Origin: Hydractinia symbiolongicarpus
Taxonomy: Eukaryota; Cnidaria; Hydrozoa; Anthoathecata; Hydractiniidae
Assembly (NCBI RefSeq): GCF_029227915.1
Contig: NC_079881.1
Location: forward strand, 32,401,501 to 32,465,500
DNA length: 64,000 nucleotides
Direction of reading: 5' to 3'
Under the pieces are notes generated by a model that was not told where the DNA came from, searched no databases, and was given only the letters and a program-made list of their open reading frames with translations. The position numbers and the translations under genes are program-made. Each line of letters starts with the position of its first letter. Position 1 is the first letter of the stretch. Shown one piece after another: positions 2,692 through 63,864 of this stretch.

Positions 2692-2708
2692 ATACCCGCG
2701 GCATGGTA

Positions 2709-4564: not shown

Positions 4565-4622
4565 GGTACTACAGTACTACAGTACTATGCTGTAGTCTTC
4601 CTATAGATTTGTTACAAGAGTC

Positions 4623-4645: not shown

Positions 4646-4659
4646 AAAAAATGTCCATT

Positions 4660-5271
4660 CTAGCAAATCACGTGAGTTCTTGGATGTTCCATCCTCATGA
4701 CTAAATGTGTATATTTGCCATCTTTCAGCCTTTCCTTAACCTTCTGGATCTCCGACGATTCAATGACATCATTCTCTTCGTGGATGGTTGCGAGATCATG
4801 TCTGTCCTTCGGATACCACACATATAACATTTTTGCCTGCCTTCGTAAGTTCTTCGGTATCGCGGTGTATGATTGTGTGAGTAGCCACATGGTGTGGTTT
4901 CGATGCCGACCGCTGATGGCCAGCTCCAGAAGCGGTTGCCTCTTTTTGTCCAGTTTCTCATCCGCGATGATATCGTCGATCAGGAATAATGTTTTGTATC
5001 CGGCACAGAAATCCGTCATCTTTTGAATCCATTCATACAACATACCTCTGGGCTCAATTAGAATCACATATCTATCCCTCCAGAACCAGTTACTCCCCAT
5101 ATATGTCTTGTTCCATCTTAATGTTGGACATATAATCACAATGAAATCGAAGTGATCAAAGTATTCACTCTCCAGCAGTGTTACTACGCGTTTGGATTTT
5201 CCGCAGCCCGTTGGACCGACGAATAGTGCCGTGTGAGGATCTTTCATGTAGTCCATCTTAATATAGTACAT
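4660..5271 (-). CDS. Viral genome-packaging ATPase (FtsK/HerA, A32-like)
   Basis: A motor ATPase expected to pump viral DNA into capsids. Walker A GPTGCGKS lies near residue 20, Walker B LFLIDDI near residue 108, a basic arginine-bearing block ISGRHRNHTMW near 132 and a sensor-like LLTQSY follows it. Length (about 200 residues) and motif spacing fit packaging ATPases of Polintons, adintoviruses and virophages. ATG candidates are at 5271, 5253 and 5244; the longer frame from 5283 would need GTG. The first ATG overlaps the end of the capsid gene by 14 bases, whereas 5253 starts just after its stop. The capsid-ATPase neighbourhood is typical of this virus group. Confidence 0.85.
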   Translation of the reverse strand: MYYIKMDYMKDPHTALFVGPTGCGKSKRVVTLLESEYFDHFDFIVIICPTLRWNKTYMGSNWFWRDRYVILIEPRGMLYEWIQKMTDFCAGYKTLFLIDDIIADEKLDKKRQPLLELAISGRHRNHTMWLLTQSYTAIPKNLRRQAKMLYVWYPKDRHDLATIHEENDVIESSEIQKVKERLKDGKYTHLVMRMEHPRTHVIC

Positions 5272-6567
5272 CCATAATTTCACCGTTTTGAATATTTAAT
5301 TGAGCATCCATGATTAGATATATGTAGGCGTTTAAGGATCCCGCGGTTTCGGCCGTCTTTTCAACTTGCAGTGTGATCCCCTCGCTCGCATTTTCAATCC
5401 GTCGGCCGGTCCCGTGCAGTGAGTTTTCATCTATGGTTCTGAAATCCAGCCATAGAGCATATTTCGTGGTTAGGTAGTCCGCGACCTTCACATCATGTAG
5501 TTGCAGATGTTTCTGTATTTCACCGGCGTTGCTGTCCTTTTGCTTGCCCTCTGCGAAATACTTGCATATTTCACCATAATGCTCAAACGGTTGCATCCCC
5601 TGAGCGAAAAGTTGGTTAGGCTTACCCTCAACTATGGCGGATACCTTTTTGATCTTAGGATTGTAGAACCTACCGGTATCTCGTTTGTAAGCTTTCTCTT
5701 CCTCAAACAGAACCAATATACCCTTCAAAGACTTGCACGGTGTATTGAACGACCAATTCCATGTTGTGTCCGACTTATCCACCCTAATTTGTCTATGTCT
5801 CAGAAATCTGTCGTAGAGTACGGCCATGTTTTGGTATTCATTTGAAATGAATCTGGCGAGTGTGGGTTGTGTCACAATCTCATATTCGAGAGATATGTTG
5901 GAGATTTTGTATTTAGCATCCGGCGCGGGTGCCGATGTGGCACCGGAAGGTTTGGTTGGTGTTGATAATACTACCCTGTCATAATTGTTGAATGTTATCT
6001 CATAACACAGCCTATTACCTAATCCAGCCTGATAATATGGGATCGTGCTATCCAACATTTCAAAATCTAGTGGTATGGTGAACTTGTTTTTGTATGCATC
6101 ATAGATTGCTTTGTCCGCTACCTCCGATGTATCTTTATCCGCCGCTCCAACTCTCAATTTTCCGTGCACCCTTCATCAAAGATGATACCTTGTCTTATTG
6201 CATTTCTTTTTTCAGACTTGGTTAACAATAAATCTCTGTAGCACCCGAAAAGATCAAAGTCATCAATGCTCAGAATCTCGGTACCCTCGAACTTGATGGC
6301 CAACTTTTTAACAATTGCCCTCCCTATGTTAGAGACCAATGTTCTCTTCGTGTCGACTTTTGACTCGAGTTCAACGTCGAAACTTATTTTCGAAGTACCG
6401 GGAACAATGACATCATCGTTACCTAAATTAGGGAACCTAATCAGGAGTAACTGGTTCTGATCAATCTCACTTGGGTTGTGAGTGACAATTACTTTTTGAT
6501 GCGTTCCTTTTACGCCATGTGCGATCCTAAGTGAACGCTCTGGGTTTAACTTTTTCCCGTATTCCAT
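5258..6567 (-). pseudogene. Major capsid protein gene, split by a frameshift
   Basis: Two overlapping minus-strand frames (6567-6154, 137 codons; and 6169-5258) look like the N-terminal third and the remainder of a double-jelly-roll major capsid protein. Each has beta-rich segments, and the relative order and adjacency to the packaging ATPase and penton gene are those of Polinton/adintovirus-like elements. The second frame has no ATG near its start; its apparent start at 6169 is GTG directly after a stop, so it is not an independent gene. The break lies near 6160-6175. The combined length (about 440 residues) is in the range of compact capsid proteins. Either a real disabling indel, a sequencing error or, less likely, programmed frameshifting. 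Confidence 0.75.
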
Positions 6568-6622
6568 GCTATTCCATATTACTTTTATTTTATTTTACTT
6601 TAATTCGGTTAATGCTACGGTA

Positions 6623-7186
6623 TCATCTGTACGCCGTATCTCTTATGTGAATGGTAACTGTTGTCTTCATACCACCCCATAACACCTTACCATCCTGACC
6701 TGTGACTCTCATGGTAAGTGATTGAAGTAAACCTTTCTTTAGTTTCTTATATTGCGGATTTTTCGGTTCAATATATGTAAAATCACCACCATACTCGGAT
6801 ATATGATATGTCATCAGGTTGTTGCTATATTCACCATCTTTAAGATTTAACGAGTTATCCAATTCATTAAGATTAAAATGTAGTTCCGTTACACCCTCCA
6901 TATTGAATATTTTACTCAACTTAGAGTTTCTAGCTAGTTGTGTTGATTTTACATCACCTCTCACGATTGAATTCAACTCCCTCCCTGTGTAGTGCCGACC
7001 CTGTTGTAACCTAACCGTGGTAACTCCATCGGCCAAGGGTATATCTATTGGAGCTGTAGCTACATATGTGACATTATCTGAAAACGTCTCCACGATCGCA
7101 ACCTCCTTTGTACCATGTGAGTTGTCTATCGGTTGATACAAATAGATTTTCTTCTCGCTATTTACGTCCTTTATTGTGATATACAT
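6623..7186 (-). CDS. Penton-like (minor capsid) protein, single jelly roll candidate
   Basis: A 187-residue, beta-strand-rich protein directly upstream of the capsid gene and on the same strand. The sequence alternates hydrophobic and polar residues in short strands, with turns rich in Asp, Asn and Gly, has no membrane helix, and includes the block VTTVRLQQGRHYTGREL. In related elements the penton gene sits beside the capsid gene, so position and size suggest the vertex protein; the fold is inferred. It starts at the ATG 38 bp from the divergent 389-residue gene. Confidence 0.55.
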   Translation of the reverse strand: MYITIKDVNSEKKIYLYQPIDNSHGTKEVAIVETFSDNVTYVATAPIDIPLADGVTTVRLQQGRHYTGRELNSIVRGDVKSTQLARNSKLSKIFNMEGVTELHFNLNELDNSLNLKDGEYSNNLMTYHISEYGGDFTYIEPKNPQYKKLKKGLLQSLTMRVTGQDGKVLWGGMKTTVTIHIRDTAYR

Positions 7187-7224
7187 TATTATATTAGAGA
7201 TTGTGAATATATTTAAATCAAAGA
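7187..7224. promoter_or_regulatory. Divergent 38-bp promoter, right
   Basis: Between the divergent penton-like and 389-residue genes. TATATTAG (7190-7197) and TTTAAAT (7212-7218) repeat the words, order and near-equal spacing found at 1335-1374, including 13 bases from the start of TTTAAAT to the plus-strand ATG. Confidence 0.55.
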
Positions 7225-8394
7225 ATGGATGACATTTTCAGATATAACCCGAATGCGGCATATAAGCCAAATGGAGGGCGGGATCTTCAAATATTGGGCG
7301 CTAGGGATCTGTACAAACAGGCCATTATTGTGTCCGAAAATGGCTCTTTCCCCGCTTCCTTTCCTAATATTTTTACCAATTATGAACTTAGTCATAACGC
7401 GCAACGTATGAGAATTTGGAATGATCAACCTTTTAGACTATGGCAAACCCAGCTAAATTTCGCCACTTGGTGTGCTTCAAGTGCCTGTGGGGTAAGTTCC
7501 GAACACCTGAAGGATGGTAGATCTATGGTAAGGTCAATATATCGTTTTCATGTGTATTATCACATTAGACGAATCATTAAGCGCCTACAGACACCTCTAC
7601 CCTTTGAGGATAGTTTTAATCAATATGATAATCCTTATTCAAATGAGGAATTTCTAAAAATCTGTGGTGAGTATGATGTTGATTCCAACCCCATGAAATA
7701 CAGAGGTCAGTACTTTTTCACTTCATATCAAAAAAGACGTAAAGACTATCCAACTCCCGGGTTGAGTTATTTCACTAACGACTCCATGACGCGGTGGATT
7801 GTGGAAAAATCCGATGGATTTACAAAAACGGGCCTTGTGAAGATCTCAAGCAGTGTTAGGGCCTATGCCTATCTTGTTCTTAGTTCTCAGGCCTCGGCAC
7901 GCTCCTCCATCCTTGGTAATGATTCAAGTGCTCTGACCGCCCAAAGAGTTTTTATGAATAACCTTGAGGATATTGTTAACCGTAGGGTTGATATTCAGGA
8001 GGACATTAAACGTTATCAGGATACGTTAAACTACGCTTCAAGTAAGGTTGATTATTCGGTTGGACAAGGTATTTATATGTTACCTAGTGACATGAATCTC
8101 AGAATTAAGACAGGGGTGGTAGGTTACAACAACAAGATTTTGATATCGGGTGAAGATCTTACCATTGGTATCAATCGAAAGGTCAATGTTACCGAATCGC
8201 ATAAGATAACTAAAAAGAAGCCTGTAACACCCGATCATCCTGATAAACACATCACCGTACACCACGTGGATACTACAGATAAACACATTACTGCACCTTA
8301 CCACAAAGATACTCCTCCTACACACGAAGATGAGAAGATCGCTCTTGTGATTGTTATGACAACGGGTTATTTCATATGGTATTTGTTTAGATAA
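7225..8394 (+). CDS. 389-aa protein with C-terminal membrane anchor
   Basis: A mostly soluble protein with an aromatic block (FRLWQTQLNFATWCASSACGVS, about residues 70-92, which I recall as conserved in cnidarian homologs), a helical middle, and a His/Asp/Thr-rich stalk with two copies of DKHIT (about 332-370), ended by one membrane helix (ALVIVMTTGYFIWYLF). The layout of a large head, a stalk and a tail anchor suggests a virion-surface or membrane protein; this is inference. It is the rightmost cassette gene and is transcribed away from the penton-like gene. Confidence 0.7.
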   Translation: MDDIFRYNPNAAYKPNGGRDLQILGARDLYKQAIIVSENGSFPASFPNIFTNYELSHNAQRMRIWNDQPFRLWQTQLNFATWCASSACGVSSEHLKDGRSMVRSIYRFHVYYHIRRIIKRLQTPLPFEDSFNQYDNPYSNEEFLKICGEYDVDSNPMKYRGQYFFTSYQKRRKDYPTPGLSYFTNDSMTRWIVEKSDGFTKTGLVKISSSVRAYAYLVLSSQASARSSILGNDSSALTAQRVFMNNLEDIVNRRVDIQEDIKRYQDTLNYASSKVDYSVGQGIYMLPSDMNLRIKTGVVGYNNKILISGEDLTIGINRKVNVTESHKITKKKPVTPDHPDKHITVHHVDTTDKHITAPYHKDTPPTHEDEKIALVIVMTTGYFIWYLFR

Positions 8395-13254: not shown

Positions 13255-13603
13255 CACGAGTATGGTGGCCCATGGCTGCCATCGCGTTTTTGTTATTACT
13301 TTATTTTCATATTGACACTCAATTCACCTTCATATGATAATCAAAATAAATCGAATCGCTTTGTAAACAAAATCAAAATGAATTCAATTTTGATATTGGC
13401 CCATCGCTGCCACACGCGTTATCAATTTAATTTTAAATCGATTTTGCTTTTGAAATCGACTTTGCTTTTCAAATTAAATTGAATTCATTTCGTTGCTTAG
13501 CCCATCGCTGCCAATGTTTTGATATTTTGAGACATGACTTATAATGCCGATGTTTTGATGTTTTGAGAAATGACTAATAACAAACCACGCTAAACTTTAC
13601 AAT

Positions 13604-14815
13604 ATGGCTGACAGAAAACGAAAAGAAAAACACCAGCAATGGCAGAAGTTTAATAAAGATTGTAAAATTAAGAGAACGTCATCCTCTGAATCAGCTGGAA
13701 GTCACATATTAACAACTAACGAATTAACTGTACAGCCCCTAGAAAGTGACACTAGTGGTAAGGCAAAAAAATACGAACGAACTGGCCCACAAGAATTTGT
13801 GGAGTTCGCATTTGAAGAAGTAACCATACCAAACATCAAACAAGCCTGTAACAAATATTTTAAAGACAGATTACCAGCTGGTATGACTTGCGACATATTA
13901 GCAAGTGACAGAGGTCCATCATGCACTAAAATGAGTCATCTTTCAAATCTCAAAGTCATTAACATCAGATTCATCAAAGACCACATTGAATCACAGACCA
14001 CCTCAAGTGCAACAACTGGAACGGGAACGTACAAACCAAGTATCAATTCTTTAACAGCAAGTTCATCAGTAGTATCACGATCTTTGCCTCAAGTCTTGAA
14101 ATCACGTAAACTTCCAGCAAAGTCGATTTCTGTAGCCAAAAGTTTAAAAGTTTCTACGATGATGAAACTGGGAAAAGTGATAACCAAATATAATGGCAGT
14201 AGTGAACAAGTGGAAATGTGTGATTTTTCTATAAAAACGATGTCATGGACTCTGCCAGAAAAGCATTACATAACTGTTGAAGAAAATCCATTTGCTACTG
14301 GTGGGTTTAGAGCAGCATATTTTGGGAAAATGAGTGGATCGAAAAGTGAAAAAAAGTTTGTCATCAAACGATATTTAGAAAGCAGCCTTGACGATTTGAA
14401 ACAAATAAAGGAAAGTTCTGAATGTCATGCACGAAAAGCTGTCCAAATGCATGCTTTAGCTGCAAATTTTGCCTTGCAACTCAGTGAAGCACTCTTTGAA
14501 GGTGGTTATATTGGGCCCAAGATGTTATACAATACAGCATCATTCGGAAGACTTGGTGTCGAATCAGAAATTGTGACAATAGAAGGATACGTAGATGGGG
14601 AGTTCAGTAAATATATAAATAAGGATGGAAGTATATCGCCTGGAAATATTTTGTTTAACCAAGAAATGGCAGAGTGTTTAACTCATTTTTCTTATGTGAA
14701 ATCCAAGGAAACACTTATGCTGGTGGACATACAAGGTTCGGGGTTAACATTATATGATCCTGAAATTGCTACTATGAAAAGTAGCTATGATGAAAATGAC
14801 GAACTTTTGTTTTGA
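13604..14815 (+). CDS. Alpha-kinase (eEF2K/MHCK-type) carried by a transposon
   Basis: A single-exon, 403-residue protein. Residues 1-200 are basic and Ser/Thr-rich. The alpha-kinase domain covers about 205-400: ENPFATGGFRAAYFGKM (nucleotide-binding N-lobe), FVIKRYL (catalytic Lys), HARKAVQMHALAANF, VTIEGYVDGEFSKY, and the C-lobe LMLVDIQGSGLTLYDPEI, which holds the conserved Asp and Gln and the Gly-rich loop. Expected role is Ser/Thr phosphorylation on alpha-helical targets. TGA at 14813-14815 cuts off the end: the same frame continues for 31 codons (to 14911) and reads GNLSTLA then HACNNFC, the usual zinc-binding tail of the family. So the gene is either recently broken or read through. No intron is present. 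Confidence 0.85.
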   Translation: MADRKRKEKHQQWQKFNKDCKIKRTSSSESAGSHILTTNELTVQPLESDTSGKAKKYERTGPQEFVEFAFEEVTIPNIKQACNKYFKDRLPAGMTCDILASDRGPSCTKMSHLSNLKVINIRFIKDHIESQTTSSATTGTGTYKPSINSLTASSSVVSRSLPQVLKSRKLPAKSISVAKSLKVSTMMKLGKVITKYNGSSEQVEMCDFSIKTMSWTLPEKHYITVEENPFATGGFRAAYFGKMSGSKSEKKFVIKRYLESSLDDLKQIKESSECHARKAVQMHALAANFALQLSEALFEGGYIGPKMLYNTASFGRLGVESEIVTIEGYVDGEFSKYINKDGSISPGNILFNQEMAECLTHFSYVKSKETLMLVDIQGSGLTLYDPEIATMKSSYDENDELLF

Positions 14816-24589: not shown

Positions 24590-27493
24590 CCCTATTCGTA
24601 CCGGGGCTTTTTTGACGTTCAAATCCCAGGGGCGCGCTGATTGAGCGCACCCCCAAGAAAATCTTTCGCATAAAAGCGGTGAACCTGATTTTTTTACAGT
24701 AACATTATGTATCTATATTGTACCAAAAAACACCTACTTTGGATGTTTTCAAGCTAAATTACATTCTCACTGCCCCAATCAACATGAGCGGCTGAAAAAA
24801 AAGGGCGAAAAATAAGGATTTTTCAAAAAAATGTCCCTAAAGAAGGTTTTTTGACATGAATTAGTTTTTTTACACCAAAACCCTGCTATTAGTATAAAAC
24901 ATGACAAAAATAAACAAAAAGAAGTAAAATAATGTCAGTAAGGTTCATATCATCAGCTGAAACCAGAACGTTCATTTCTTTGAACACGACATACATTTTT
25001 GTATCATATGGGCCTGACACGTTGTATTGCCACATGATTGACAAAGTGATTTGACACACGGAATAGATTTTTTCTTTTGGGAATAATTTTCTCCTGCATT
25101 CTCAGCCTGACAAACAGTACACCGTTTCCTTGTTTCTGCAAATGCAGGACCAATAGCTCCACGCGGTTCCGGATTACATTGCGCATTACCCAAGACAAGA
25201 TTTATTTTTTGTTTTGTGATGGACAACATACCATTTTGACTTCTTTTTTGTATGGTTGGTTTCACCAATTCCATGACTAATTGAAAGGCGTATTCAAAAG
25301 ACTTTTGTTGTAGCGGATCAATACCTTTATTCAGTGAATATATCGTCGAAGAATTTACTCGAGCGGTATCCAACATGTAAGAAAACATAACAAACGTCCA
25401 CTTTCTTGACTTTGTCTTCGTCGTGTGAAACCCCATCCTCTGATCCACAATATCAGTACCCCCCTTTGTAAAGTCATATAGTTTATATAACCCCAATTTG
25501 TGGCAATTATCATCCTTGGTTGTACCTAGGATTGGTTCTAGTGTTGACAACATGAGTACATTTTTCTTTCCGTTTGAAGTTTTCACTACATATGAAGATA
25601 AGGACAGCGGCCCATCTTTTTGCCAATACACTTCACTGGACAGTGGCTCTCTTTGTTTGAAATCTTTCATTTCAATTGGAATTCCTTTCCTGTTGATCTG
25701 CATTGTACCAACACAAGTGATATCCCTTTCATACAACCAAAGCGCAAGCGGGATTGATGTATATAATCTGTCGAAAGATATATTACGTCCGGCCAGCGAG
25801 ACAACATTTGATAGTTGTTTTATCATGTATTTTACTATTTCCTCAGTGCCTGGTACATAATAAATTCCTGGATCTCCCTGTGGTTTGCCGCTATATGGAG
25901 CTGCAAGGAATGTATACGGATATCGTGCTGCATTTATGGCTTTCAGTAATAAACCGTATTTGGCGGGTTTGTTGGGATTGTACTGTTTGAAACTTATCTG
26001 TGTCCTCATTGGATACAGGGTTTCATCAAGTGATAGATAGTCGCCCGGTACAAGGCATGACATGCATTCATAATTGAAAGATTCAAAAACTTCACGCATT
26101 GCCGCAAAACGGTCATGTTTCCATCTTTCATCTCTTGTTGTCTCGTCGTCAAAACAAAGGTTTGTACGTATAAAAAAAAACCTATTTCTCGACATAGTGG
26201 CGCTGAATATTGGCGGACCATATTGGTTTGAGAATAATCTATGAGCAGATATACAGTTTAGTTTGTATAGTCCTCGATATAGGTACAATCCAATAAATGC
26301 ATAAATTTCTTCAACAGAGGTTTCTTTCATGTACGAATACCTACTATTTTGCGTCAAGAAATTATCGGGTAGTTTGGACAGAGTGCGTCTAATCTTTCTG
26401 TTGGTGCACAACAAAATGTTATTCACAATTTCAGGAGTGAAGTAGAGCTCAAAAGCAGAACGGGGTGATGCAGTTTCACAAGCTTTTGGTTGTGGGCCTT
26501 GTCGTCCAGTAATAACATTTGCACGATTATTTCGACCAACATTTCCAGCTTGTGGCTGATTCTGGAAAGTACGAATTATGTCATTTTTCTTCTTATTATC
26601 TATTTTGAAAATGCTTTGGATAGACTTTGATTCTGGTGGTATTGGAAAAACGTTATAATTTTCTAAATTTGTAGCGGCAGCAATACTGTTTACTAAGCGA
26701 TATTTCGTAAGTCGACGTCTCCTCAAATGGTTTGCTCCGGCTTCCTCTTCACTTTCTGACGCATCATTGTCAGCATCACCTACACGGTCATCGTTATCAT
26801 GTTGATGATCCTCTTCTTCAACTATTTCTTTATCTATGAGACAAACAAAAATACTAAAAATAAATTATCACACATTTTGAAACATATTTTGCTTCTCGCA
26901 ACCAATGCGCCATATATATACGCGAAGTTAGACAGAGAGATTATATATATGTATATATAATATAGCTATATATATTACCAATTTCACCGCACAATTCTTC
27001 CAAATCATCTTCATCATCAAGTTCTTCATCCATAGCTTCGTCTACGTTATCTTCTTCAATAAATCTAAATATATTTTGAATGGCTTCCTCAGATGAAATT
27101 CTAGCCTTTTTCGGTCCCATTTTGTAATTTTTTTATTAGACTAATAATATATAAAGGGGTAATTTATGTCACAAACGCAATAATTATATTTTTTATTATA
27201 TATAAGCCCTCTTTGCTATACCATCTATCCTATTTATCTAATTAACATCAATAAGACTGAAAATATAACACAATTCGAAATATTTCATTTTTCGCTTTTG
27301 CGCCTTTTTTGACATTGGCCCCATAATGGCCGCAAAACATAAATTTTTCAGAAAAAAAATTTGCCGGTCTTAACCGCCCTAAAAAAATATTAAAAGTCTG
27401 CGAAGCTCATGCGGGTCGCTTAATTTTTCATGAAAAGCCGCATAAAAATGTGAAAGGGTGCGCTCATTCAGCGCACTCCCGGTACAAATAGGG
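24590..27493 (-). mobile_element. piggyBac transposon, apparently complete
   Basis: Flanked by TTAA at 24586-24589 and 27494-27497. The ends are inverted repeats: CCCTATTCGTACCGGG at the left and CCCGGTACAAATAGGG at the right (one mismatch), each with an inner GCGCTnnnTGAGCGC palindrome. A two-exon transposase fills the interior. Length 2904 bp. Confidence 0.93.
24972..27120 (-). CDS. piggyBac transposase, two exons
   Basis: Exon 1 is 27120-26979 (start MGPKKARISSEEAI, acidic), exon 2 is 26833-24972; the GT-AG junction keeps frame and gives about 667 residues. The DDE_Tnp_1_7 core has the three acidic positions in SLDETLYPM, SFDRLYTSIPL and GGTDIVDQ. The C-terminal cysteine-rich domain (CTVCQAEN ... 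CVKSLCQSC ... CQAH ... CMSC) would bind the TIR. No stop or frameshift is seen, and the ends are intact, so this copy may be able to move. The intron is AT-rich with a TATATA run. Confidence 0.92.
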
Positions 27494-31223: not shown

Positions 31224-31395
31224 TGATGTGACCAGTACTTGGAAGTCAGGAGACAGAGAATCAGACAAGGACTACGCGTTGTAGTTAAACACAAGAGCTT
31301 ATATTTACGTAAGTATCAGAGCTCGACCATACACCTCGGTAGTCCGTCTCCAAGTGTCTCTGGGTCTCGCCCACCTATGTACATATATCATAACA
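31224..31395 (-). repeat. 5' LTR of deleted gypsy element
   Basis: 172-bp partner of 28823-28994, followed on the right by ACAGT target duplication. Confidence 0.88.
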
Positions 31396-31400
31396 ACAGT

Positions 31401-32719
31401 TGCATTTGCAAGGCAATTTGACGAAATGGTGCTCTTATGTGAAAAATGATTTATCTTGGAGAACAATTTTTTCACTGCCACAATGTCTAACTTCCTTTTG
31501 CATAGGGGCAACCTACGACACCCTTCCCTCTCCAACCAATCTTGTGAGATGGGGAATTGAGAAAGACAAAAGTTCCATTCTGTGCAAGAAACAATCCTCA
31601 ATTGTCTCTCACATATTGGGTGCCTGTAGAGTTTTGATTAAGGCAATAAAAGAGTTTTTGGTATCATATGAACCTCTTAAGCTTTCCAAGTGCAACAAAA
31701 TTAATTTCATTCCGGCCGGTCAATCACCATCTAAGAAGAGGCATACAAAGTGTCCAGGCCTTTTTCACCTTGCTTCCGATTGGAAAATACTGTCAGATAT
31801 AGATTCCGTTTTAGTTGTTCCACCATACATTGCAATAACACAACTACGCCCAGACGTGTTAATAATATCCAGTTCTTCCAAAACTGTAATTATGTTAGAA
31901 CTGACTTGTCCATGTGAAGAGAACACGGAATATTGGCACAAACGAAAGCTTAACAAATATTCTTCACTTTGTTATGCTATGAAAAACAATGGATGGATCG
32001 TGCATTTCTTTGCCATTGAGGTGGGTGCAAGGGGTTTCTGTTCAGAATCAGTAAGGACCTGTTTTCGTCGCCTTGGTTTCCCTAACAAGCCTTTACGTTC
32101 CCTATTAAAATCCCTAACTTTTACCTCCATGAGTGCTTCTTTTTACATCTGGATGTCTCGAAATTCTACCACTTGGGTTGAGTCTGAAAAGGCCCCAATC
32201 ATTCCTGAAGTTTCTTCTGTTACAAATATGGAATGTAAGAAATTAAAAAACCCTGAAAAATCTTCCGCAAATCACACAAAATCTTGTAAAATCAAAAAAC
32301 CCGAAAAACTTGCTACAAGGTCTTCCAAAACAACAGTCGCATTGCCATCTAACCCTGGTTATAGGAATAGCGGTCTAAAAAGCTTGGGAAACACATGTTA
32401 TGCGAACTCCATCTTACAATGTTTTTATAACCTTCCAAAAGTTAAAGAAGCCATTTCTGTCAGCAAAACAACCTCAAAGTTAGGCGAAGCATTTGTAGGT
32501 GTTCTTCAAAGTTTGGCTGTTTCTAGAAGTCCAGTTGATCCCTCCCATTTTTTGCCTGCTGTGAAACATCATATCTCATCTGCGAAGGGAAGTGCATTTA
32601 ATATCTTTGCTAAGCACGACGTCCCCGAGGTTCTTGAATATCTCCTACCTGGTCTGTCATTAGACTTTCCATTTCTTGGAAGTCTTTTTAGTATTGGCAT
32701 CAAGACATCAACCACTTGA
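31401..32719 (+). pseudogene. RLE and USP Cys-box region of the non-LTR element
   Basis: This frame resumes the interrupted protein. About residues 40-90 hold CKKQSSIVSHILGAC, a degenerate zinc knuckle; RPDVLIISSSSKTVIMLELTCPCEEN is the PD-(D/E)XK core of a restriction-like endonuclease (RLE). After a Lys/Ser/Pro-rich linker comes GLKSLGNTCYANSILQCFYNLP, the catalytic Cys box of USP deubiquitinases. The frame shifts near 32700-32720. Confidence 0.8.
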
Positions 32720-33164
32720 AATTCATGTCATATTACCAGCTCCTCAGAAGTTATAGCACCATGCATCCAACTTTCTCTGCACCCTACGAATCGTCCTTAG
32801 ATAATTTCTTCGAAAGCGAGGAGTTGTCAAACACCAATGCCTACTTCTGCCATGTTTGCAACGCTCATCAAACTGCTCTAGTTGAAAATCAAGTAGTGTC
32901 GTGCGGTTCCCATCTCATTTTACAGCTAAACGTTTTGCCAGTGTCAACGGCCTTGTGTCAAAAATTGCCCCTCGTATTACTGCTTACCCTGGTACCCTTT
33001 CCATACATTGCGGCAACTTAAATAATGGTCACTACACAACCATAGCCTTCGACCAAATGGTGCACAGGTGGATACCATGCAACGATAGAGCAGTAATTTT
33101 CTGTGATGACCGCCTTATTAACAGTCATGAGTCATATGTTTTCTTTTTAGAGGAGCTGAGATAA
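32720..33164 (+). pseudogene. USP-type deubiquitinase C-terminal half
   Basis: Two frames (from about 32716 and from 32901) carry the remaining USP elements: a zinc CxxC pair (FCHVC), an LILQLN strand that matches the LKRF region, and the His box NGHYTTIAFD followed by CDDRLI. The frames are joined by an indel near 32900-32960, so this copy is broken, but the order Cys box, zinc pair, His box is that of a complete USP fold. The stop at 33164 ends the element's coding part. Confidence 0.75.
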
Positions 33165-53044: not shown

Positions 53045-53325
53045 TCATTTCTCTGACATTTTTTTCGACACGTTTCTTTTGTGATTTAGCACGAAATCTT
53101 TAATGTTTCTCCAGGAACGACCTTGAAGCAAGCCTTGGTTTTCTTCAATAATCTTTTCACATAGAGCTTTTCCTGGCAGCAAGTCGCCCACAATAAAACT
53201 GTGGCATCTTTTTAGTACGACAGCGCTTGCTTCTTTAGACCACTGCGTCCAATTTCTGTTTGATTTTCTTGGAGCAATGATTTTCACGATTTTCCTTGTT
53301 TCAGAAACTGCTGTATTCTCGTGAT
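53045..53325 (-). CDS. Terminal exon: SANT/Myb-like domain
   Basis: The exon encodes TQWSKEASAVVLKRCHSFI, LLPGKALCEKIIEE and GRSWRNIKDFVLNHKRN. The spaced Trp residues and helical blocks match the SANT-like C-terminal domain that follows recombinase-like cores in a multicopy invertebrate/fish protein family (family recalled, not searched). It joins the exon at 54880-54794 in phase 1. Confidence 0.6.
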
Positions 53326-56300
53326 CTTAAAAAAATATGACATTAGAGAAAAACTATAAAACTAAACTAAAAGATTCGTTTATATTTTATAAACAAGGTA
53401 TAAGCTTAAGTATATCCAGGACAAGGTTTGTTTACCAACTTTACCTCCCACAAAACGTTGTTAGTTGTTTTGTGCATACCTTATTGGCAAAAAAAAGTCG
53501 GCAAAAAGTGACTAAATTTTGGCTAGGTGACTATTATTTTTTGCCGACTAAAATTTTTGCCGAATTTTCTATTACCGACCAAACTTTTATTCCGATTTTT
53601 TTTCCGACTTAACCTCCTCTCGCACTTTTTTTTCCGACCAAACTTTTGCCGTTTTTTCTACCTTGTTGCTAATTTTTCATCAGTTTTATGCAATTATTCT
53701 TTATTAGTGACTTACTTAAAAAATTTAGTCGGCAAAAAGTGACTAAATTCAAAAATTTAGTCTGCAAGAAGTGACTAAATTTTGTCCAAGTGACTAATAT
53801 TTTTGCCGACTTTATATTTTTGCCGACTAATGTTTTTTCCGCCTTTTTTTACCGATAAGGTAATTGCTGTATTGTTTTATTATGTTTTGTTTTTAGATGT
53901 ACTAGTCGATGGCCCGTGGAGAAATCTTTTCTATACTGCATTACGCACGTCTCGCTACTCTCGGCACCATTTTGCATGACAGATAGACAGACAGACAGAC
54001 GTATACGGGTATTACAACATAGACTATTCGTTAACCCGTGGAAAAATCCACGGAGTCGCCCGTCCTTTATATATCGCATTTCGTATTTCCGTAATAGGAC
54101 GCGGTTTTCGCGGACACACAGACAGACGGAATGCGGCTATTATTAAAGAGACTAGACGTTAACCCGTGGAAAAATCTACAGGGTAGCCCGTCCTTTATAA
54201 ATTATTATAATTATTTCGTGTTTTCATAACAAACAGACGCACGAACAGACAGACGACGGCTATTATTATAGAGATAGAGTTATGGATATAGAAAAAGGAA
54301 GATGTTCCTTTCTCATGCTTTAACATTATAAGGGATTTAAAAGCACACGTTTTTTAATAAGAATAGTGTTTCGTTATACCATGGATATTTTTAATTTTTA
54401 CGCGAACATCACCCTGATATTTTTTCAACATAATGTTAGCGCAGATAAGATCGAAATATCTGGGAATGCCTACAGGTGTAAAATTCACCTCTATGTTACT
54501 GTTGTTTAAGCAGCCTAATTTAACTGACAGACAGACAGCTAGATTTTGTGGGGAACAAACATTTCAATGGTTATAAAACCTGACAACCTATGTTTTTAGC
54601 CAACTTGCTTCCTCTATATTCAAATTTCAAAACATAATATAAATATAACAACATGAGCCACAAATGTTTAAAGATCACATAGTCAAATCGCCTTGTCGAG
54701 ATCTTGCTTGATTCTAATAAATTCGAACTCTTGACCAGGGATGGGTACGTCATTCGATCTTAATAACGAATAGTTAAAACAAATTATTCTTACCTGAAAA
54801 ATGCTCAACATCTTCCTCATTTACATCTTCTTCATTTACATCTTCTTCATTTAAATCTTCGTCTACTGGTGATGGCAAATCTAAAGTTCAGTACAGTTGT
54901 TATGCATAAAACATCCATCAGAAAGGATAAATTTTAAAATAGTCTAACCCATAGCTTTTTAAAAGAACTTCGATGTGTTCACTACTTTGTTATGTAAGTT
55001 TTAAAACTAAACAAGTAATATCTACCGTTCAACGTAATTTCCTTTAAAGATCTTCCGACGAGTTCTTTTCCATTACCAGAATCGATTGCTAACAGCAATC
55101 GACTCACTTTGGAAAGTTCTATCGCAGAGTCGTGAAGGCGATAGTACTCCTTGTGTACGTTAACGGTGGCAATATACTTCCGCAACTTAGTGCTCTTCAC
55201 TAAATCCGGTTTCTCCAGACCTTCAACTCTCTTCACTACTTCATTGATACATTGATAACCTCGAAGAGGATTTAATGACTGCCTGGTTGGAGTTGGAAAC
55301 AGGTATTTGTTTCCTGCCGCTACTCCGACTTTTTCTCTTTTCTTGACCAATAGATCAATCGCAGCAACACAATCTGCCGTTAATAAAGTTGGCACTTGTC
55401 TGCCCCTCTTTCCTCTCACATGAACAATTTCTAATCTTAAATAGACAATAATACCTAGTTCTAGTAGGATAGTTTAGCCAAACATATTATGAAAGAACAA
55501 GGGGAAACAGAAAAAACAAGTTGAAACAAAAACATTAAAAAATTGTTTTTGTTCCTGCACGTAGTTCAAAATTTAAAAAGATGTTGTTGGTAAAATAGCA
55601 TTCAAATATCTATCCTTATTTTGGGTTTTTACGTGTAATAAAATTGTGAAAGTTGAAACCACCTCAAGATGACTAAGATAATAAAAATACCAACCTATCA
55701 ATTAATTTCTTTTCAATTGGAGACAGAGAATCGGCAATGTCATCATGCATGATTTTCTCTCTGTCATTTCTAGCAGCGTAGCGTTTTAACAATATGCTGG
55801 CGGGTTCATTTCCTCTGCGCTTATTAAAGACGGTCAGCCTTGTGATAACTATTTCAGCAAGTTGCCTCCAAACATCCACTGTGACATTTTTCTTTAAATC
55901 GGCGCAAAGACGCACAATTTCTTTTTCACAAAACACCTTCAACTTTAGTAAATCAGAGGTTAATGGCAGAACATCCGTTTTATTAAACTTATTTTCTGCC
56001 AGTGTCCAAAGTGACGCTGACGAAATCCTCACTGGCCACTCCGTCTGATACAATTTCAAAAAATTGATGGCGTTTTTGATGAGGACATCGTCATTCGTTC
56101 TTAGGCCGTAGCCGTGCAATAGGTTGCATACACTATCCAATGTGTATCCCAATTTTAACGGAAGACTGGGCGTCTCAAAGCATGGCGCCATTTCTCCATC
56201 AGCATTCTGGCTTTTGTACCCTGCAAGAAGCTTTGTGCATTCGCAGACATCGTCGAAATACTGAGGTTTGATAAAGGCAATCAAACCACCATCTACATTT

Positions 56301-59300
56301 TGCCTCAATTCTTGCAACTTTTGCAAAAGTCTGGCCAAAATTCGCATTCTTTGCGAAACCTCTCCTGTTGCTCTTCTTCCTTTGCCACTTATCAAAAAGG
56401 ATCCATAAGTGACGATGATGAAATCCTTTTTGACAAGCTCAGTTAACTCATCCTTCTTCATTTTCCTAATAACAAACTCCTCCAAATCTAGACTTGCACC
56501 AGGAATAGCCCTGTTGGGGTAGATCAGCAGTTCTGACTGTTTGATAATGTTTTCCTGCTCACAACTTTTCATGTCTTTAAAACTGCAGTTTCGACAGTGC
56601 CTTGACAATTGTGCTTGGTGTAGGAAAGCATAACAATATTTACAAGGCAAATATTCACTTGGTTGGGATTTTACTCCCTTGGGAGGACGTCGAGCCACTA
56701 TCATTTCACCACCCGTCTTCAGCACTTTTATATTGTGGTAAAAGTCCCCCTTTAAACGAAGCGCTTTGAGAAGATGTTTCCTCTCCTTCGATTTTAATGC
56801 TAAATCCTTCACCTTTTTTACCTCTTCTTCCACAATATGTGTTAACAGATGACGACTCAGTTTTGGCTGCATAAGACCACAATAAAGGCAAGCATGCCTG
56901 CTGTCATACAATCTTTCACCTCCGTTCGATTTTTGAGTTTCTTTGACATACACTATAATAGAGTTTAAAAACAAATACAAAATGTTAATATGCTGAGAAG
57001 TGGAAAAAATAGATTCCTTATTGGACAAGAAAATGACAACGAAGTGATGAAAGTAACGTTAAAACAATGAATTTTAAACCTTATTATTTCAATTTTCTTG
57101 TTCTCTATTATTTACATTGACTTGCTTTCCGTTTTATTTATGTTCTTGAATTACGTTTTATTTATGTTCTTGAATTACTGATTTTGTGCTGCAAAATAGC
57201 GTTGCTGCGGCCTTCATTATTTTCCAGTATAATTAAGTTAGCAAACAATCCTTTTTTTACTGATAAGGGAAGATGTCATTTGTTCATAGTGCTAAAATTG
57301 CGCGCACTTCACACATTAACTTTCTACTTTACATCCCTTTGGAGAAAAATGTCAAGTCCCGTAATTTCTCCTTCATGAAGAATATAATTGTGGGGAAGTA
57401 ACTAAACATACTATAATAATTTGCCTTTCCATAACTATTGAAAATTTAATATTAATTACCACGATCTATTGTCTCTTGTTCTTCTTCACTTTCATCTTCT
57501 TCGTCAGCTGAAAATGTAAACACGTCCGCACCTTTTTCAACATGTTTATTTTCCTTGTCAGAAATTTCGCTATCTTCTGACTCTGACACTTCAGTTTCAG
57601 AAAGCGTGTAATCAGAATCCTCAGGATCGTCAACACAATCGACTTGATCGACAACACCTGACACGTCTAAGTCCTGTATATGTAACAAAGAAAATAAGCC
57701 GTTAAAAACTTTCCACCTGGCTAGTTAACGATCGCTATTAAAAACAATAATTCTATTACTGCCGCTGGTAGAGATGGTACATTTTAGCGCACAGGGCAAT
57801 TTTTCTGAATATTAAAATGGTTATTGGAGATTTAGAGCAATATTAAAACAACTAGTCGTCAACCCGTGGAAAATCCACGGGGTCACCCGTCCTTTATATA
57901 TCGCATTTCGTGCTTCCGTAACAGACAGACGACGGTTATTATTATAGCGAAGATATATTTTTGGTGTAATTTTGCAGTTAGACATTCGTATTATTGAATT
58001 GATTGAGAAATGTAGAAAATAGCGTATTTTTATATATGTGACGACAAATCCAATCGTACGACGTTTTAGGTTTAAAACGTTCTTACAATTGTGCCAAATT
58101 TTTATCATCGAAGCATAAATAGTTCAGGTTATATGTCCAACGGACACTTTACGCCTACTCTCTTCCCCCCGATGCCATACTTAAAACCCTAAGTGTGATA
58201 GGGTTAAAATATTATTGATACAAACTGTATAAAGATATTCCATACCTCTACATCAGTGTTTATGATGGTAGGGAAATCTCCATGCAAGCCGGAATCGTTC
58301 ACAACGGACTTAAAAATATAAATAATTTATCCATTTTACTATTAAAGAAAAATCTTGACAAAGTGCAACGCCCTCACAAAATAGCACAAATACTTTTTTA
58401 GACAATGAAGTTTAAATAAAAATTTTCACATGATTTTTGCGTCAAATGTAATTTAGCAGAGTTACTACTGTAGAAAGCATGGTTTCTGCAAAAACGGGAT
58501 TACTACGGTGGATAGCGTTACCGCTTCGTCTTAATATCCTGAGCAGTTTGCACGATAATTTACGATAAATTAAAGTAAATGCAATTTTTTTATTACATAA
58601 AAATCCAATCACCTGTTCTAATGAACTGCAGTTTACTTCGTTTTCCTGCGACGCGGCTGCACTTTTTTCCGAATTTTCCGAGGACTAAGATTGAAATTAA
58701 CTATTAACAATACAATCTATTTCCATAAAGTAATAGAGAATAGATACTTAACATTTCCATTACAACAATGCGAACTCTAAGAATAGCAGGCTGAGATTTC
58801 AAGTTTAAAACAATAGATCTATTGTTTAAAGAGAAATAAGAATAATAATCAGCCTGCCCAGAATTTGGGACAGTCTGATAAAAAAGCATGTATATATGTT
58901 TTAAAAAGAATGTAAACGTCAATATGCAATTACCGCAACTGGTCTGCAAGCTTTAATTATTTCTTTAATAGTAGGCTTCTAAACAGATTGTGAGTTTTAG
59001 TGTGAGTTTTGTAAAAAGGGAAAATTATCATTATTGAAAAAATCACAAAACTTACTTTTATTGGCACAAAGTAATTTTCGACGTCATCTGATAGCATGCA
59101 TTCATCCTATAAGTCGAAACATATAATAAGATATTCTGTTCTATCTCTGGTTTATTGTTTAAAAAAACACCTACTGATTTTGCAGTCTCCTGATCGGTAA
59201 AATTGTTCGCCGATGACGTGATAGTATTTTCAATCTATAATTAATTGTAAATTTTTTATATTTAATCCCCCATATGATTGTCTGATAGAAGTTCACTTAA

Positions 59301-62300
59301 TGCTCTAGTAGGTTGATATCTTAAAAGTGTAAAAGAAAAGTACTTACAACTGCTTTAGTCACTTTTTCACCAAATTTTTTTAACAAAGGGGTCCTAGTAG
59401 TCTATAACAAAGTTGGAAATTCGATATAATAAATTTTCTGTACGACTGTTTGTGAAGTGTCCATACGGAAGCAAATTGCAATGGTAATACATAAATAAAT
59501 ATTTTGTTTTATAACTTAAAAATTATTTTTAAAAAAAGACTTACGACTGGTTGGGATTTTTTCTTACACGCTGGTGTGCTGGTACTTTCAATCTAAAATA
59601 AAGATGGAAATTTGATATAATAAGATTCCTTCACAAAATTTCAAAAAAGGCATCATAAATATTTTTTGCTACTCTTGTAAAAACGGATAATGTGGTATTG
59701 CTTTTTTTGTTTCGTAAATTGTGTAAAAGAAAAGTACTTGCAATTGCATTGATCTTGTTATCACCAAATTTGTTAGACAAAGGAGTGTTAGTACTGTCAA
59801 TCAGCAGCAAAAATGAAAATTTGGTATAATGAATTTCCTGTGCGACTGTTATTAAAGAATCGTAGTACATCTTTCAGATGTGTGAGTAAATATTTTATTC
59901 TACATTTTGCAAATTTGGTAAAAAAAGTACACACCGCTGGTTTAGGCTCTTTACGCTCACAATTTTTCAACAAAGAAGTGTTGGAGCGTTCAATCTATAA
60001 CAAGCATTTAGATGTCATTATTAGGCTTCATGTAAGACTTTTGTTAGGGATTCGTAGCAGTATTTTCAGTCCCTTTAAAAAGAAACATTTACCACTTCTT
60101 TAGTCTTTTCATTGACCATTGAAGGCGTGGTAGCAGGTTGAATCTGTAACAAAAATCCAATTCTGATGTTATACATTTTCTTAACAAGTACTAGTCCACC
60201 CTCAATGGAATTCAAAATAAGGCATAGTAGCGCTTGTCTTGTAAAGTATTCAGGAAAGAACTTACTACTTCATTGGAACCTTTTTTTGGAGAAAGACTGC
60301 TGGTATTTTCGATCTATAAGAATGGCGTAATTTAATATATTACTTTTTCATTTTTTCATCTTTCTTAACTTCACTAATGGCCATGGGGCGCAAAATAGCA
60401 AAATTTAAAAAGGAAGGTATACTTTCGTATATTTTTCTTTAAGCTACAGTATTCTCTCCAATTAACGGACACTCTAAAAGGCGGACACCTCTGATTAGCG
60501 GAAACTTTGTCCATGCACCGGCCGTTTTCTGGTCAAAGTCTCATAAGAAACTTTCTAATTAGCGGACACTCTGATTAGCGGACAATTTGCACGAAATGGA
60601 AACTATAGGTTTTTTTTTCTCTCCAATTAGCGGACAGTCCAAAAAATTAGGGAGCAGCATACAAAAATAATAAAAAATTAAATAATTTTAAAATATTTAT
60701 TTTAAACACTTTGAAACTTTACAAGAAATTTCGGCTTTTACATTTTTTTCGCAAACCAGTCAATCAACTTTTGTTGTCCATAAAACTTATATATAACTGG
60801 TATCTCAAGACAGACTTGAAATTATTCATGTCAGGAACTTTAAACAACAATCTATTAAAAAAATTTTCTCCAAGCAAAGTTGTTTTAAAAAATCTTTTCG
60901 TTAATTTAGTTGATATTATGATGTTGGTATTTGTTTTGTTTTTTTAAAACAAAAGTTATATTACGCGTTCAATTTAGTTGTTTTCTTCTTTTTTCGTGTC
61001 TAAGTCCAGCACGGTGTACCGGCTAATTTTTTAAGTTACACATTTTGGTATACAAAATCGAATTTTCTTTAAATTTTGAGCTTACATTGCAAAACTTTCC
61101 AAAAGACGGACACCTTAGCGGACACTTTGTTCATGCACCAACGGTGTCCGCTAATTAAAGAGAATACTGTAGTTCTTAAAATATTATTGACGTCAATTTT
61201 GTATCTCATAATGAGCAAGTAAAACTAATTTGTTTGAATTTGCGCATTCATTTAGGAGAAAAAATATTCCCCTTGGAAATGAAAATTTTAGCCTGAATTA
61301 TTATAGAAGACAGAAAGAAAGAAAGAAAATACTCACAATATATCTTAAATCACTGTTAAATGTTTTGGCTGATGACCTCTTTGCCGGCTGTTCAAACCAA
61401 CACAATTCTATTAGTCCATGTACCTAAGGAAGAGAAATCCTGTAGCATTTTTTTGCATTAAACTTCAAATAACTTTTAATTTAGATTATGGAAGAGTTCA
61501 TCCATAAACAAGTAGGAAATCACGCACCGGAAAGCACACATCTCCACATTTGGCGACACAAAATAAAATGCACATTTTATGCAAATCTACAACCTTTTTC
61601 CCAGGAATATCTGCTTCTTAAAAGCGCTGCGAACGTGCTTGACTAACTTAGTTACCTTTTTAAACAATTCGCTTTTGAATGCTGGAATTGATGCACGCCA
61701 ATGATTTTTCAAACCTATCATGTGTTGAAAAGGAGTTATATGCATGGGTAAAACACTACTTGGAAACATAATTTGGTATGCCATGATAGAAAACGAGAAC
61801 ATATCGGTTTGTGTTGTAAAACTGTCAATAGTAATGTTGACCTCAGAGTGTGACCACACTCTGAGGTCAACATTTCAGGTGCCATGTAAAAGACTGAGTA
61901 AGCTTCAGCTTTACCAGCACCATACGATGACATCATTAACGATGTTTGTTGTTGCAGAATTGACTGTACACTATAATCTGCAATTTTGAATGTGATGTTC
62001 TCAACCTCTCCACAAATTAAAATATTACTTGGTTTGACATCACCAGCAACGATTGACTTGTCATGCAAATAATTTAAACCATCACTGACATCTAGCAGTG
62101 CTTTCAGCCTCCACTCCAACGAAATATCATCCTCCAATATTTGAAGGAGGCCATGCAGTGATCGAACAGTGACCTCCTCAAACATGTCGTAAATCTTCTT
62201 TCCACAAAGCTCCAACGCAAAACCTTTTGTTTCCCCAACTAATGCGCCAAAACATTTAACAATGTTTTTGTGCTCAACAGAACAAAGAGCTTTCGCTTGA

Positions 62301-63864
62301 GCAATCAATTTCTTGTTGCTTATTGCTGCTGCTTCATTGAGTTTTATTACTCGCAAGGCCACGGGCCTTTTCTGAAGAGATGCTTCATGAACACGAGCTA
62401 ACCTTCCTGCACCAATCGATGAACCAATAACAAAATCCGACAATGTATACATGTTAAAGTCATACTGAAAAAAAGTAATTAAATCAACACAATGCAAGAG
62501 AAAGTTTATTTTTTTCCAATTAAAGCATGTGAGCAAACAAACTATAAGGTATTATTATAAGTAAAGTAAAAAAACAGCTTTAGAAAGGGACTTTTTTTAG
62601 CATTAGGCAACTTGTAATCTATTTGTGATAGGTTAGAATGACATAAATTACTCAGTAAACAATTATTGCAGAAAATTTGGTGTTTACGAAATGTCTCACT
62701 GAAACTTGGATAACCACCTAAAACTTACGTCGGTTAATGTCGATTTTGTTTCGGCAGCAATTTTTTCTTTCTAAAAATAGATATGAAGTGCAATTTATAT
62801 TCTTTAAATGTACGTAAGAGTACTTATGTAAAAGTAAATTGGTTCAAAAGAGTCCAGGTTTTTCGAAAAACACAAAGTTTCTGTATTTACCTGATTTGTT
62901 GTAACAACTAACTCTCTGCTGGAATCACATTGAAAATCTAAAAAAATTCATTACATGGCATTAACAAAAACTCAGGTCTCTTACAGTTTACGGAATTTAA
63001 AACGAAAAGAAAGTTTACGGAATATTTCCACAAACGTTTTGTTTGCAGCAGCATTACATTTGTGTAACAACGTGGACAATACAAAGATTAAATATATATA
63101 AGCTATTTCCATATAGATTAACTCTATCCAGACCCTATCTAAGGACTCAAGGCTGCCCAACCACTCCTTTATACCTTCTAATAGAAAGATCTATAAACAA
63201 AAAACTTTGAAGATCGTTTGAAAACAAAGGCGTATTATTACGTTAAATTGAAACTTTTTATTTTTTGGTTAATTTGTTTTAAATCGATAAGTGTCAACAC
63301 TTGTGACCTATGCCGTGCATCATTTTTTTATTAAAAGGTAACATACCGACACATCCAGCTAAATCAGTTTTATTCTAAAAAAGAGAAAAATGAACGAGTA
63401 TATAGTATTACTACCAAATATTATTCCAAGAGATAAAAGTGTCGGATTTTATGGAAAAAGAAGATAATGGTGAGTGCCTATGACAGCAAAAAGCTAGTAT
63501 TCTATAACGTTTTTTGGTCTTTGATTGAGATTGCGTGAGAGCGGCGTTAACCTAAAATTACATTTTAAGTTAAGTATATGTCGCCAGTTGATTTGGTTAA
63601 ACTGATGGCCAAAAGTCAACCGCGGATAATAATCCAAAAATCGTGTTTTCGGCATTTATGACATTTTGAGGAAAGAATTAACACATTCAGATTTTGTTGC
63701 AACATAAATAAGGTATACACACAGACCCTTATCAAAAAAATTATTTAGGTTGTCGTCTAATCTGGTCACACAGCTTTCAAAGAAATGCGTTGCTATAAAA
63801 AATTAAGACTTCAAATAAAGGTTATATTACATACCGTAAACATATCTTTTAAATTCTTCATGAC
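53045..63864 (-). CDS. Chimeric multi-exon gene: kinase-like, microexon linker, recombinase-like, SANT-like
   Basis: Twenty-two exons with AG/GT borders and matching phases (minus strand): 63864-63835, 63374-63347, 62937-62891, 62770-62729, 62464-61528 (kinase), 61423-61337, 60313-60266, 60143-60093, 59994-59935, 59801-59742, 59592-59545, 59401-59348, 59233-59174, 59106-59056, 58978-58934, 58684-58613, 58308-58246, 57673-57460, 56952-55695, 55435-55026, 54880-54794, 53325-53045. The first listed exon contains an ATG, but upstream exons may lie beyond 64000. The domains suggest a regulator formed by fusing a kinase to a transposon-derived DNA-binding protein. The kinase exon carries two frame lesions. 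That all are one gene is inferred from phase and order; no transcript is available. Confidence 0.65.
53495..53850. repeat. Repeat with GTCGGCAAAAA words
   Basis: GTCGGCAAAAAGTGACTAAATTTT and its near-complement TTTTTGCCGACTAAA alternate at least four times, forming imperfect inverted repeats. It lies inside the intron before the terminal exon. Confidence 0.55.
53902..54274 (-). mobile_element. Three head-to-tail Helitron-like units
   Basis: Minus-strand units: about 54020-53902, 54151-54024 and 54274-54152. Each 3' end has a CCCGTGGAnAAATCnAC(G)G hairpin; the outer ends show CTAG (53902-53905 and 54152-54155) and a TCTCTATAATAATA start (54274). Units two and three abut without spacer. Confidence 0.7.
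54794..54880 (-). CDS. Acidic 87-nt exon with NEEDV repeats
   Basis: The exon encodes SPVDEDLNEEDVNEEDVNEE and ends before GTAAGA; phase 1 at both ends. The 15-nt unit (NEEDV) is repeated three times. Confidence 0.55.
55026..55435 (-). CDS. Tyrosine-recombinase-like exon, C-terminal catalytic region
   Basis: Encodes VRGKRGRQVPTLLT, STKLRKYIATV (with the catalytic-type Arg), then NVHKEYYRL (with the putative Tyr) and LSKVSRLLLAIDSG. In the family as I remember it about 25 residues with a GH motif stand between YIATV and the HKEYYRL block; here they are absent, so the helix that holds part of the active site is deleted. It splices from the 56952-55695 exon (phase 2). Confidence 0.65.
55695..56952 (-). 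CDS. Large exon: zinc fingers and recombinase-like N-terminal domain
   Basis: About 419 codons. Two C2H2-like fingers: CLYCGLMQPKLSRHLLTH near the start and CKYCYAFLHQAQLSRHCRNC about 100 residues on. Then a long helical region (SQRMRILARLLQKLQEL, KLGYTLDSVCNLLHGYG) that resembles the core-binding half of the recombinase-like family and ends NRRRGNEPASILLKRY-like. No stop inside. Its acceptor is ATAG at 56953-56956 and its donor GTTGGT at 55694. Confidence 0.7.
57460..57673 (-). CDS. Acidic linker exon
   Basis: A 214-nt exon that starts at GACTTAGACGTG after CAG and ends in phase 1. The peptide is Asp/Glu/Ser-rich (SESEDSEISDKENKH, DEEDESEEEQE), probably disordered and perhaps a casein-kinase-2 target. 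Confidence 0.6.
57852..57953 (-). mobile_element. Short Helitron-like unit in an intron
   Basis: CTAG end at 57852-57855 next to hairpin CCCGTGGAAAATCCACGGG, and TCTTCGCTATAATAA start at 57953; flanked A (5') and T (3') on the minus strand. Confidence 0.65.
58246..60313 (-). CDS. Array of eleven phase-0 microexons
   Basis: Exons of 48, 51, 60, 60, 48, 54, 60, 51, 45, 72 and 63 nt, all multiples of three, all phase 0. Seven start with IEN/IES/IDS/IQP/TTR-type words and share the pattern I-E-(N/S)-T-x-T-P-L-x-x-K-(F/K)-x..., for example IESTSTPACKKKSQPV and IENTSSLSPKKGSNEV. Their spacing (158-197 bp) and shared intron words such as GAAATTTGnTATAATnA show that exon plus intron was duplicated as a unit. 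The fourth (59801-59742) has a GC donor (GCAAGT) and no AG at its acceptor, so may be skipped. Any exon can be skipped without a frame change, suggesting a variable-length, Ser/Thr/Lys-rich linker between kinase and DNA-binding halves. Confidence 0.7.
60447..61169. mobile_element. Tigger/pogo-like non-autonomous element in an intron
   Basis: TA target duplications (60445-60446 and 61170-61171) flank CAGTATTCTCTCCAATTA at the left and the complement of CAGTATTCTCTTTAATTA at the right; GCGGACAC words repeat near both ends. No transposase inside. Confidence 0.8.
61337..61423 (-). CDS. Kinase C-lobe final exon
   Basis: An 87-nt phase-0 exon encoding VHGLIELCWFEQPAKRSSA, the alpha-H region of a kinase (CW..P..R pattern, conserved Arg of subdomain XI). 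Acceptor CTTAG and donor GTGAGT. Confidence 0.7.
61528..62464 (-). pseudogene. Kinase-like domain exon (probable pseudokinase) with two frame lesions
   Basis: N-lobe: IGAGRLARV (Gly loop), VALRVIKL where VAIK would have Lys (Arg here), and a weak alpha-C. Catalytic loop: VAGDVKPSNIL (His changed to Ala, non-RD), DYS for DFG, MAPEML for APE, then TQTDMFSFSIMAYQ (alpha-F) in another frame. The frame is lost at a perfect 19-bp inverted repeat (61834-61873), which looks like a 17-bp templated insertion, and shifts again by one base near 61630-61650 before LHKMCILF and the donor GTGCGT at 61527. So this allele may be dead, or the assembly has errors. TKL-like by sequence feel. Confidence 0.65.
62729..63864 (-). 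CDS. Short 5' exons of the chimeric gene
   Basis: Four exons: 63864-63835 (30 nt, contains ATGAAGAAT), 63374-63347 (28 nt), 62937-62891 (47 nt) and 62770-62729 (42 nt). Phases agree (0, 1, 0, 0) and lead into the kinase exon. The encoded segment is short and polar. The true start could be the ATG in the first or an exon beyond 64000. Confidence 0.5.

Follow-up and report, generated by a model that had tools for sequence, protein, structure and literature searches.

Does a kinase-like domain in the genome of the cnidarian Hydractinia symbiolongicarpus belong to the same gene as the recombinase-like protein encoded next to it, with the run of small exons between them serving as a linker? The question is raised by a 64,000-nucleotide stretch of contig NC_079881.1 (RefSeq assembly GCF_029227915.1, positions 32,401,501 to 32,465,500; hereafter the window, in which positions are counted from the first letter), where a sequence-only reading had proposed such a fusion. 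Three parts follow one another on the minus strand, to which all exon coordinates below refer: a degenerate kinase resembling RIPK1, a tandem array of small exons, and a tail that combines zinc-binding-like motifs with a tyrosine recombinase (YR) domain. That one gene joins all three in a shared transcript is a reading whose chances we judge to be about evenly balanced.

The array of small duplicated exons is real. Between 60313 and 58246 lie 11 exons of 45-72 nt each, comprising seven related copies with their introns (A1-A7, 59175-60313; 48, 51, 60, 60, 48, 54 and 60 nt), delimited by self-comparison and frame scan, and four further phase-0 exons delimited by splice borders (L1-L4, 58246-59106; 51, 45, 72 and 63 nt), the last of which (58308-58246) is kept in P0017, a Hydractinia paralogue bearing a SET domain (motif NDSGxHGDFPT, E 4e-4). 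As had been claimed, all 11 lengths are multiples of three with reading frames open in phase 0; the claimed AG/GT borders are present in 10, the exception being A4 (59742-59801), which on reading of its splice borders has TG in place of the acceptor AG, and a GC donor. A1-A7 are diverged tandem copies whose introns were copied along with them: they are 60-79% identical to a reference copy (exon and flank included), with mean pairwise identities of 57% in the exons, 59% in the 45 nt upstream and 50% in the 60 nt downstream. The relatedness first noticed in the sequence is borne out by the best 60-nt self-match of the array, which reaches 80% where 100 dinucleotide shuffles gave no more than 60%, and by 147 pairs of scanning windows at 65% identity or more, compared with none in any shuffle. 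Start-to-start spacing of the copies is 149-209 bp, correcting the 158-197 bp given earlier. A simple-repeat artefact was considered and ruled out, the copies being diverged exons with introns between them; Tandem Repeats Finder shows no such array.

A 48-nt window is open in all seven copies in phase 0 only, with its start no more than 18 nt into the exon, and windows entirely outside the exon are open in at most five of the seven (62 offsets, three frames). Because the shared open frame is confined to the exon and the exon lengths differ by threes, the coding frame of the array has been maintained; constraint on the residues it encodes is weak.

Downstream of the array, the tail frame stays open through 749 codons in five exons of up to 1258 nt with agreeing phases. 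Frame and phase define an acidic exon (R1, 57460-57673) and a short acidic exon (R4, 54794-54880); alignment and fold matches define an exon with two zinc-binding-like motifs and the N-terminal part of the YR (R2, 55695-56952) and one with the catalytic half of the YR, lacking its GH segment (R3, 55026-55435); and alignment with relatives defines a C-terminal helical domain common to them, followed by the stop codon (R5, 53048-53325). The tail has the catalytic-domain fold of tyrosine recombinases (fold matches to XerH, Cre and lambda integrase), and its relative P0071 bears a precomputed PF00589, so the recombinase-like character first proposed stands. Comparison with the sequences of solved structures gave no match at E <= 1, and for the Crypton YR (DUF3504), sought by Pfam scan only, there was likewise no match at E <= 1. 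The proposed zinc fingers fared less evenly: recognized by eye and by conservation, their residues (C228, C231, H241 and H245; C310, C313, H325 and C329) show little or no variation across 50 sequences, whereas the Pfam scan at these motifs found no zinc-finger match at E <= 1.

The NCBI protein of the locus, P0001 (LOC130648660, an uncharacterized protein of 884 aa), has R585/R586, K635, R711 and Y724, which we take to fill the catalytic roles of box I Arg, Lys, LR(K) and Tyr. An in-frame loss of about 22 residues, including the GH motif, has left the YR domain otherwise open, and without the GH segment P0001 lacks the full motif set of an active tyrosine recombinase. Among 50 aligned family proteins GH is present in 46, and P0001 alone is missing the whole segment before the Tyr. 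The absence of the GH segment makes DNA binding without recombination the most likely activity of the tail, the binding itself being predicted from the sequence.

The tail places the locus in a family. A profile built from two sequences (P0001 and P0002), with which we scored the 7994 candidates sharing most words, yielded 72 family proteins at E <= 1e-3, hosted by cnidarians (Hydractinia, Montipora, Acropora and Dendronephthya), insects, molluscs and fish; none of 54 candidate stretches in viral contigs held a relative. The window tail is homologous to the zinc-YR family of P0017 (LOC130614143), with which it shares 48% identity over 692 columns. SET, repeats and the same tail occur together in Hydractinia P0017 and Pecten P0068, and Montipora P0027 has SET, Ulp1, repeats and the same tail; an NCBIfam scan of these three proteins gave no match. 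Of the 74 family proteins, 37 went through our domain scan, namely P0001, P0002 and those in which the part before the tail is longer; SET was found in three of them and Ulp1/C48 in three, P0027 having both, so that five carry either. The remaining 37 have parts before the tail of at most about 95 residues, leaving no room for an N-terminal kinase. Strong internal repeats were found in the N-terminal parts of 11 of 28 proteins, compared with 0 of 28 in one shuffle each and 1 of 28 for the cores (the sample being proteins with N-terminal parts of at least about 150 residues, less P0024 and P0080, whose tail start is unclear); the beetle protein P0061 is among others with repeat-rich N-terminal parts. 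Remnants of SET or C48 in the window were sought by tblastn of SET from P0017, P0027 and P0068 and of C48 from P0027, and were rejected, the best E values being 0.58-0.86 and nothing falling below E 0.5. The window locus has neither SET nor Ulp1 at its N-terminus, features too infrequent among the scanned proteins to define the family.

A design of domain, often repetitive linker and zinc-YR tail therefore recurs; with its kinase joined, the window locus would be a further case. In its form with SET or Ulp1, found in cnidarians and a mollusc, this design looks little described: among the open-licence papers that the searches turned up, no title or abstract opening treats the zinc-YR family, no paper naming these loci was found, and no title on pseudokinases and transposons was relevant.

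The kinase domain reported upstream of the array is confirmed by Pfam, which with the kinase pieces joined and an X at the break in their frame gives PF07714 at E 1.9e-26 and PF00069 at E 2.2e-25; its nearest solved relative is RIPK1 (E 3.8e-16). Pfam and comparison with RIPK1 define the main exon (61656-62464), and splice border and RIPK1 alignment the last (61337-61423), which ends in the phase-0 donor gtgagt. Four short exons with consistent splice borders and phases precede them (63864-63835, with an ATG at 63861; 63374-63347; 62937-62891; 62770-62729), so that exons of small size are not confined to the linker. In comparison with RIPK1, the beta3 Lys is replaced by R, the alphaC Glu by Q, HRD by AGD and DFG by DYS (DFG aligned by eye), positions that we presume to be the VAIK Lys, the alphaC Glu, HRD and DFG of kinase nomenclature. 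None of the four is intact and the frame is broken too, as would not be found in an active protein kinase; from its sequence, the domain is likely a pseudokinase. The break falls at a perfect inverted repeat (61833-61874; 20-nt arms and a 2-nt spacer), whose presence inside a coding kinase exon may reflect a recent mutation or real allele, or an assembly error.

The interval given in the sequence-only reading runs to 61423; the upstream edge of the array is A1 at 60313, and 61423-61337 is the last kinase exon, 1.0 kb away. The gap holds an element found by inverted-repeat search (about 60429-61187), with 44-nt terminal inverted repeats that are 77% complementary. Inside this element, at 60701, lies the sole AATAAA of the intron between kinase and array, and an ATTAAA occurs at 60336. 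No candidate for a terminal kinase exon survived: five acceptors pass the pyrimidine filter, with frames of at most 14 codons, and the longest leaves an intron of 44 nt.

What, then, argues for a single gene? The kinase and the array adjoin on one strand, the kinase ends in a phase-0 donor and lacks a satisfactory terminal exon of its own, and phases run unbroken along the whole exon chain from the kinase exons to the tail; the continuity originally claimed thus holds at the exon junctions, its sole failure being the frame break at 61833-61874 inside the kinase exon. Relatives that join SET or Ulp1 to the same tail through repeat linkers make a kinase-linker-YR gene plausible by analogy. The locus would then be a single gene of a transposon-derived family, with the degenerate RIPK1-like kinase occupying the N-terminal slot that SET or Ulp1 holds in some relatives, and with a flexible linker in its N-terminal half expanded by tandem duplication of one small phase-0 exon. 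Since the linker exons are multiples of three in phase 0, linker length would be able to vary: exons other than A4 could be added or skipped without damage to the frame, and splicing might exploit this.

Several results weigh against a single gene. The kinase exon 62464-61656 shifts frame at the inverted repeat; a full kinase-YR protein is therefore not readable in one frame in the assembled haplotype, the product of which is probably the kinase-less protein predicted by NCBI. Read-through of the kinase donor meets a stop after 11 codons, a possible end of the kinase. When the 7990 candidates sharing most words with the joined model were scored, the best protein match was P0001 (100% identity over 68% of the model), which begins inside A4 and is without a kinase. 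In the ranges of about 710-2257 and 226-717 aa, the locus yielded no protein consisting of the kinase alone or carrying it in a fusion. The single protein with both kinase and tail that the fusion proposal called for was thus absent from these two length ranges, and it was absent also from the 37 scanned relatives, none of which, P0001 included, has a kinase domain; nor does a kinase appear in the precomputed Pfam lists of the 72 profile-search matches. The proposed fusion of a kinase with a transposon-derived protein accordingly keeps the SET and Ulp1 relatives on its side, with P0001, the scanned relatives and the broken frame against it. The linker adds further difficulties: the array exons, at 57%, are no more alike than the 59% of the 45 nt upstream of them; their nonsynonymous and synonymous differences (pN 0.41, pS 0.51) indicate weak constraint, in sequences that are too short and pairs that are not independent; and the N-terminal part of P0001 scores 31, compared with the repeat threshold of 45 applied to the relatives.

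Exon A4 bears directly on the question. P0001 starts with MQLQ (ATG CAA TTG CAA at 59749-59738, start codon 59749-59747) in a frame other than the phase 0 of A4, uses a GT donor after 59738, 4 bases past the GC donor, and continues through A5-A7 and L1-L4 into the tail; the NCBI protein cluster at the locus has 10 member sequences. With NCBI's GT donor, none of six listed acceptors passes an open frame from the upstream phase-0 exons, a further point against joining; the acceptors at 59837 and 59870 would admit one if the GC donor were used, so that the choice of donor and acceptor would make A4 join or separate the upstream and downstream halves. It is conceivable, and in our judgment quite improbable, that the fusion is controlled by splicing in this way, with array exons tuning the spacing between pseudokinase and dead recombinase and A4 acting as a frame switch: skipping A4, or using its GC donor with the AG at 59837 or 59870, would give one long frame and a joined protein, and the GT donor would cut the frame, the tail restarting at the ATG of A4 as a free DNA binder.

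The best-surviving rival to one gene, which we regard as a real possibility that falls short of probable, is that two neighbours are present, a kinase gene that has decayed and, distinct from it, a YR-tail gene with the array as its linker, their phase match being due to chance (which we put at about 1/3 for phase 0 at a single junction). The tail mRNA would start inside the array, either driven by a promoter of its own or given a spliced leader by trans-splicing, the latter a route open to it because some Hydractinia transcripts receive such leaders (PMC11067881). The start of P0001 at 59749 in A4, the lack of a kinase in the proteins found for the locus, the disrupted kinase frame and the transposon-like element separating kinase from array all agree with two genes; yet a convincing terminal exon for the kinase is missing, a start codon in an internal duplicated exon, 12 nt before that exon ends, would be an odd native start, and the design of domain, linker and tail is present in some relatives. 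It is unlikely that the locus is instead a decaying mobile-element copy with nothing functional left, the deletion in its YR, the break in its kinase and the splice loss at A4 being successive lesions: three lesions at a single locus, a family that is widespread in animals and looks transposon-derived, and several transposon genes in the window are in keeping with decay, but the tail keeps an open frame of 749 codons across five phase-matched exons, the YR domain lost its segment without a frameshift, and all 11 linker exons are open multiples of three.

Elsewhere in the window, positions 240-8391 hold a series of long open reading frames (ORFs) that includes a Pox_A32-like packaging ATPase (4663-5295, minus strand), a run that may be a virus- or Polinton-like element; the only other ORF of that run to be scanned (5261-6172) had no Pfam match. 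An ORF at 13574-14812 (plus strand) has an alpha-kinase domain (PF02816, E 3.4e-23), and a 630-codon ORF at 24975-26864 (minus strand) has a transposase domain (PF13843, E 2.4e-51) that we take to be piggyBac-like. A ubiquitin hydrolase (UCH) lies in two pieces at 31394-33161 (plus strand), preceded by frames that look reverse-transcriptase-like by eye.

The sequence-only reading knew of no described gene with this design; that was too strong, since parts of it occur in titin PEVK, in schistosome micro-exon genes and in host-transposase fusions. Closest are the relatives P0017, P0027 and P0068, for which we found no family name: they have the same tail, an acidic region and a repeat-rich linker (the repeats being known from the proteins), and differ in carrying SET or Ulp1 where the window locus has a kinase. 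P0017 and P0027 also keep the GH segment that the window YR lacks; P0068 lies outside that alignment. If the kinase is joined, the range of domains that transposon-derived proteins have captured would grow by a signalling (pseudo)kinase, and linker growth by exon duplication could be studied in a tractable animal; CRISPR knock-in in Hydractinia is the subject named in the title of one paper (PMC6122657). More distant systems resemble single parts of the locus. Titin PEVK, a flexible part whose length depends on splicing, has many duplicated short exons (PMC6469411), as the window array does; the array belongs to another protein, has seven copies, and would vary by splicing only on our interpretation. 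Schistosome micro-exon genes encode secreted or membrane-anchored proteins through many short symmetric exons of 6-36 bp (PMC5825161); the window locus shares short symmetric exons and falls outside that class, in which such exons make up most of the coding exons, its linker exons measuring 45-72 nt and its tail exons up to 1258 nt. A YR-type domain within a host gene is found, as at the window locus, in the Crypton-derived genes KIAA1958, ZMYM2-4 and QRICH1, Cryptons themselves occurring in cnidarians (PMC3212892); the available text of that paper does not contain the terms 'SET domain', 'C2H2' or 'kinase'. Host-transposase fusion genes such as SETMAR, CSB-PGBD3 and KRABINER combine a host domain with a transposon-derived DNA-binding part (PMC12062965), which is similar to the design considered here. 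The window locus differs from them in pairing a YR-type protein with a kinase, a joining that the exon phases would permit and that the NCBI model leaves out, and it is most likely a variant of the host-transposase-fusion kind.

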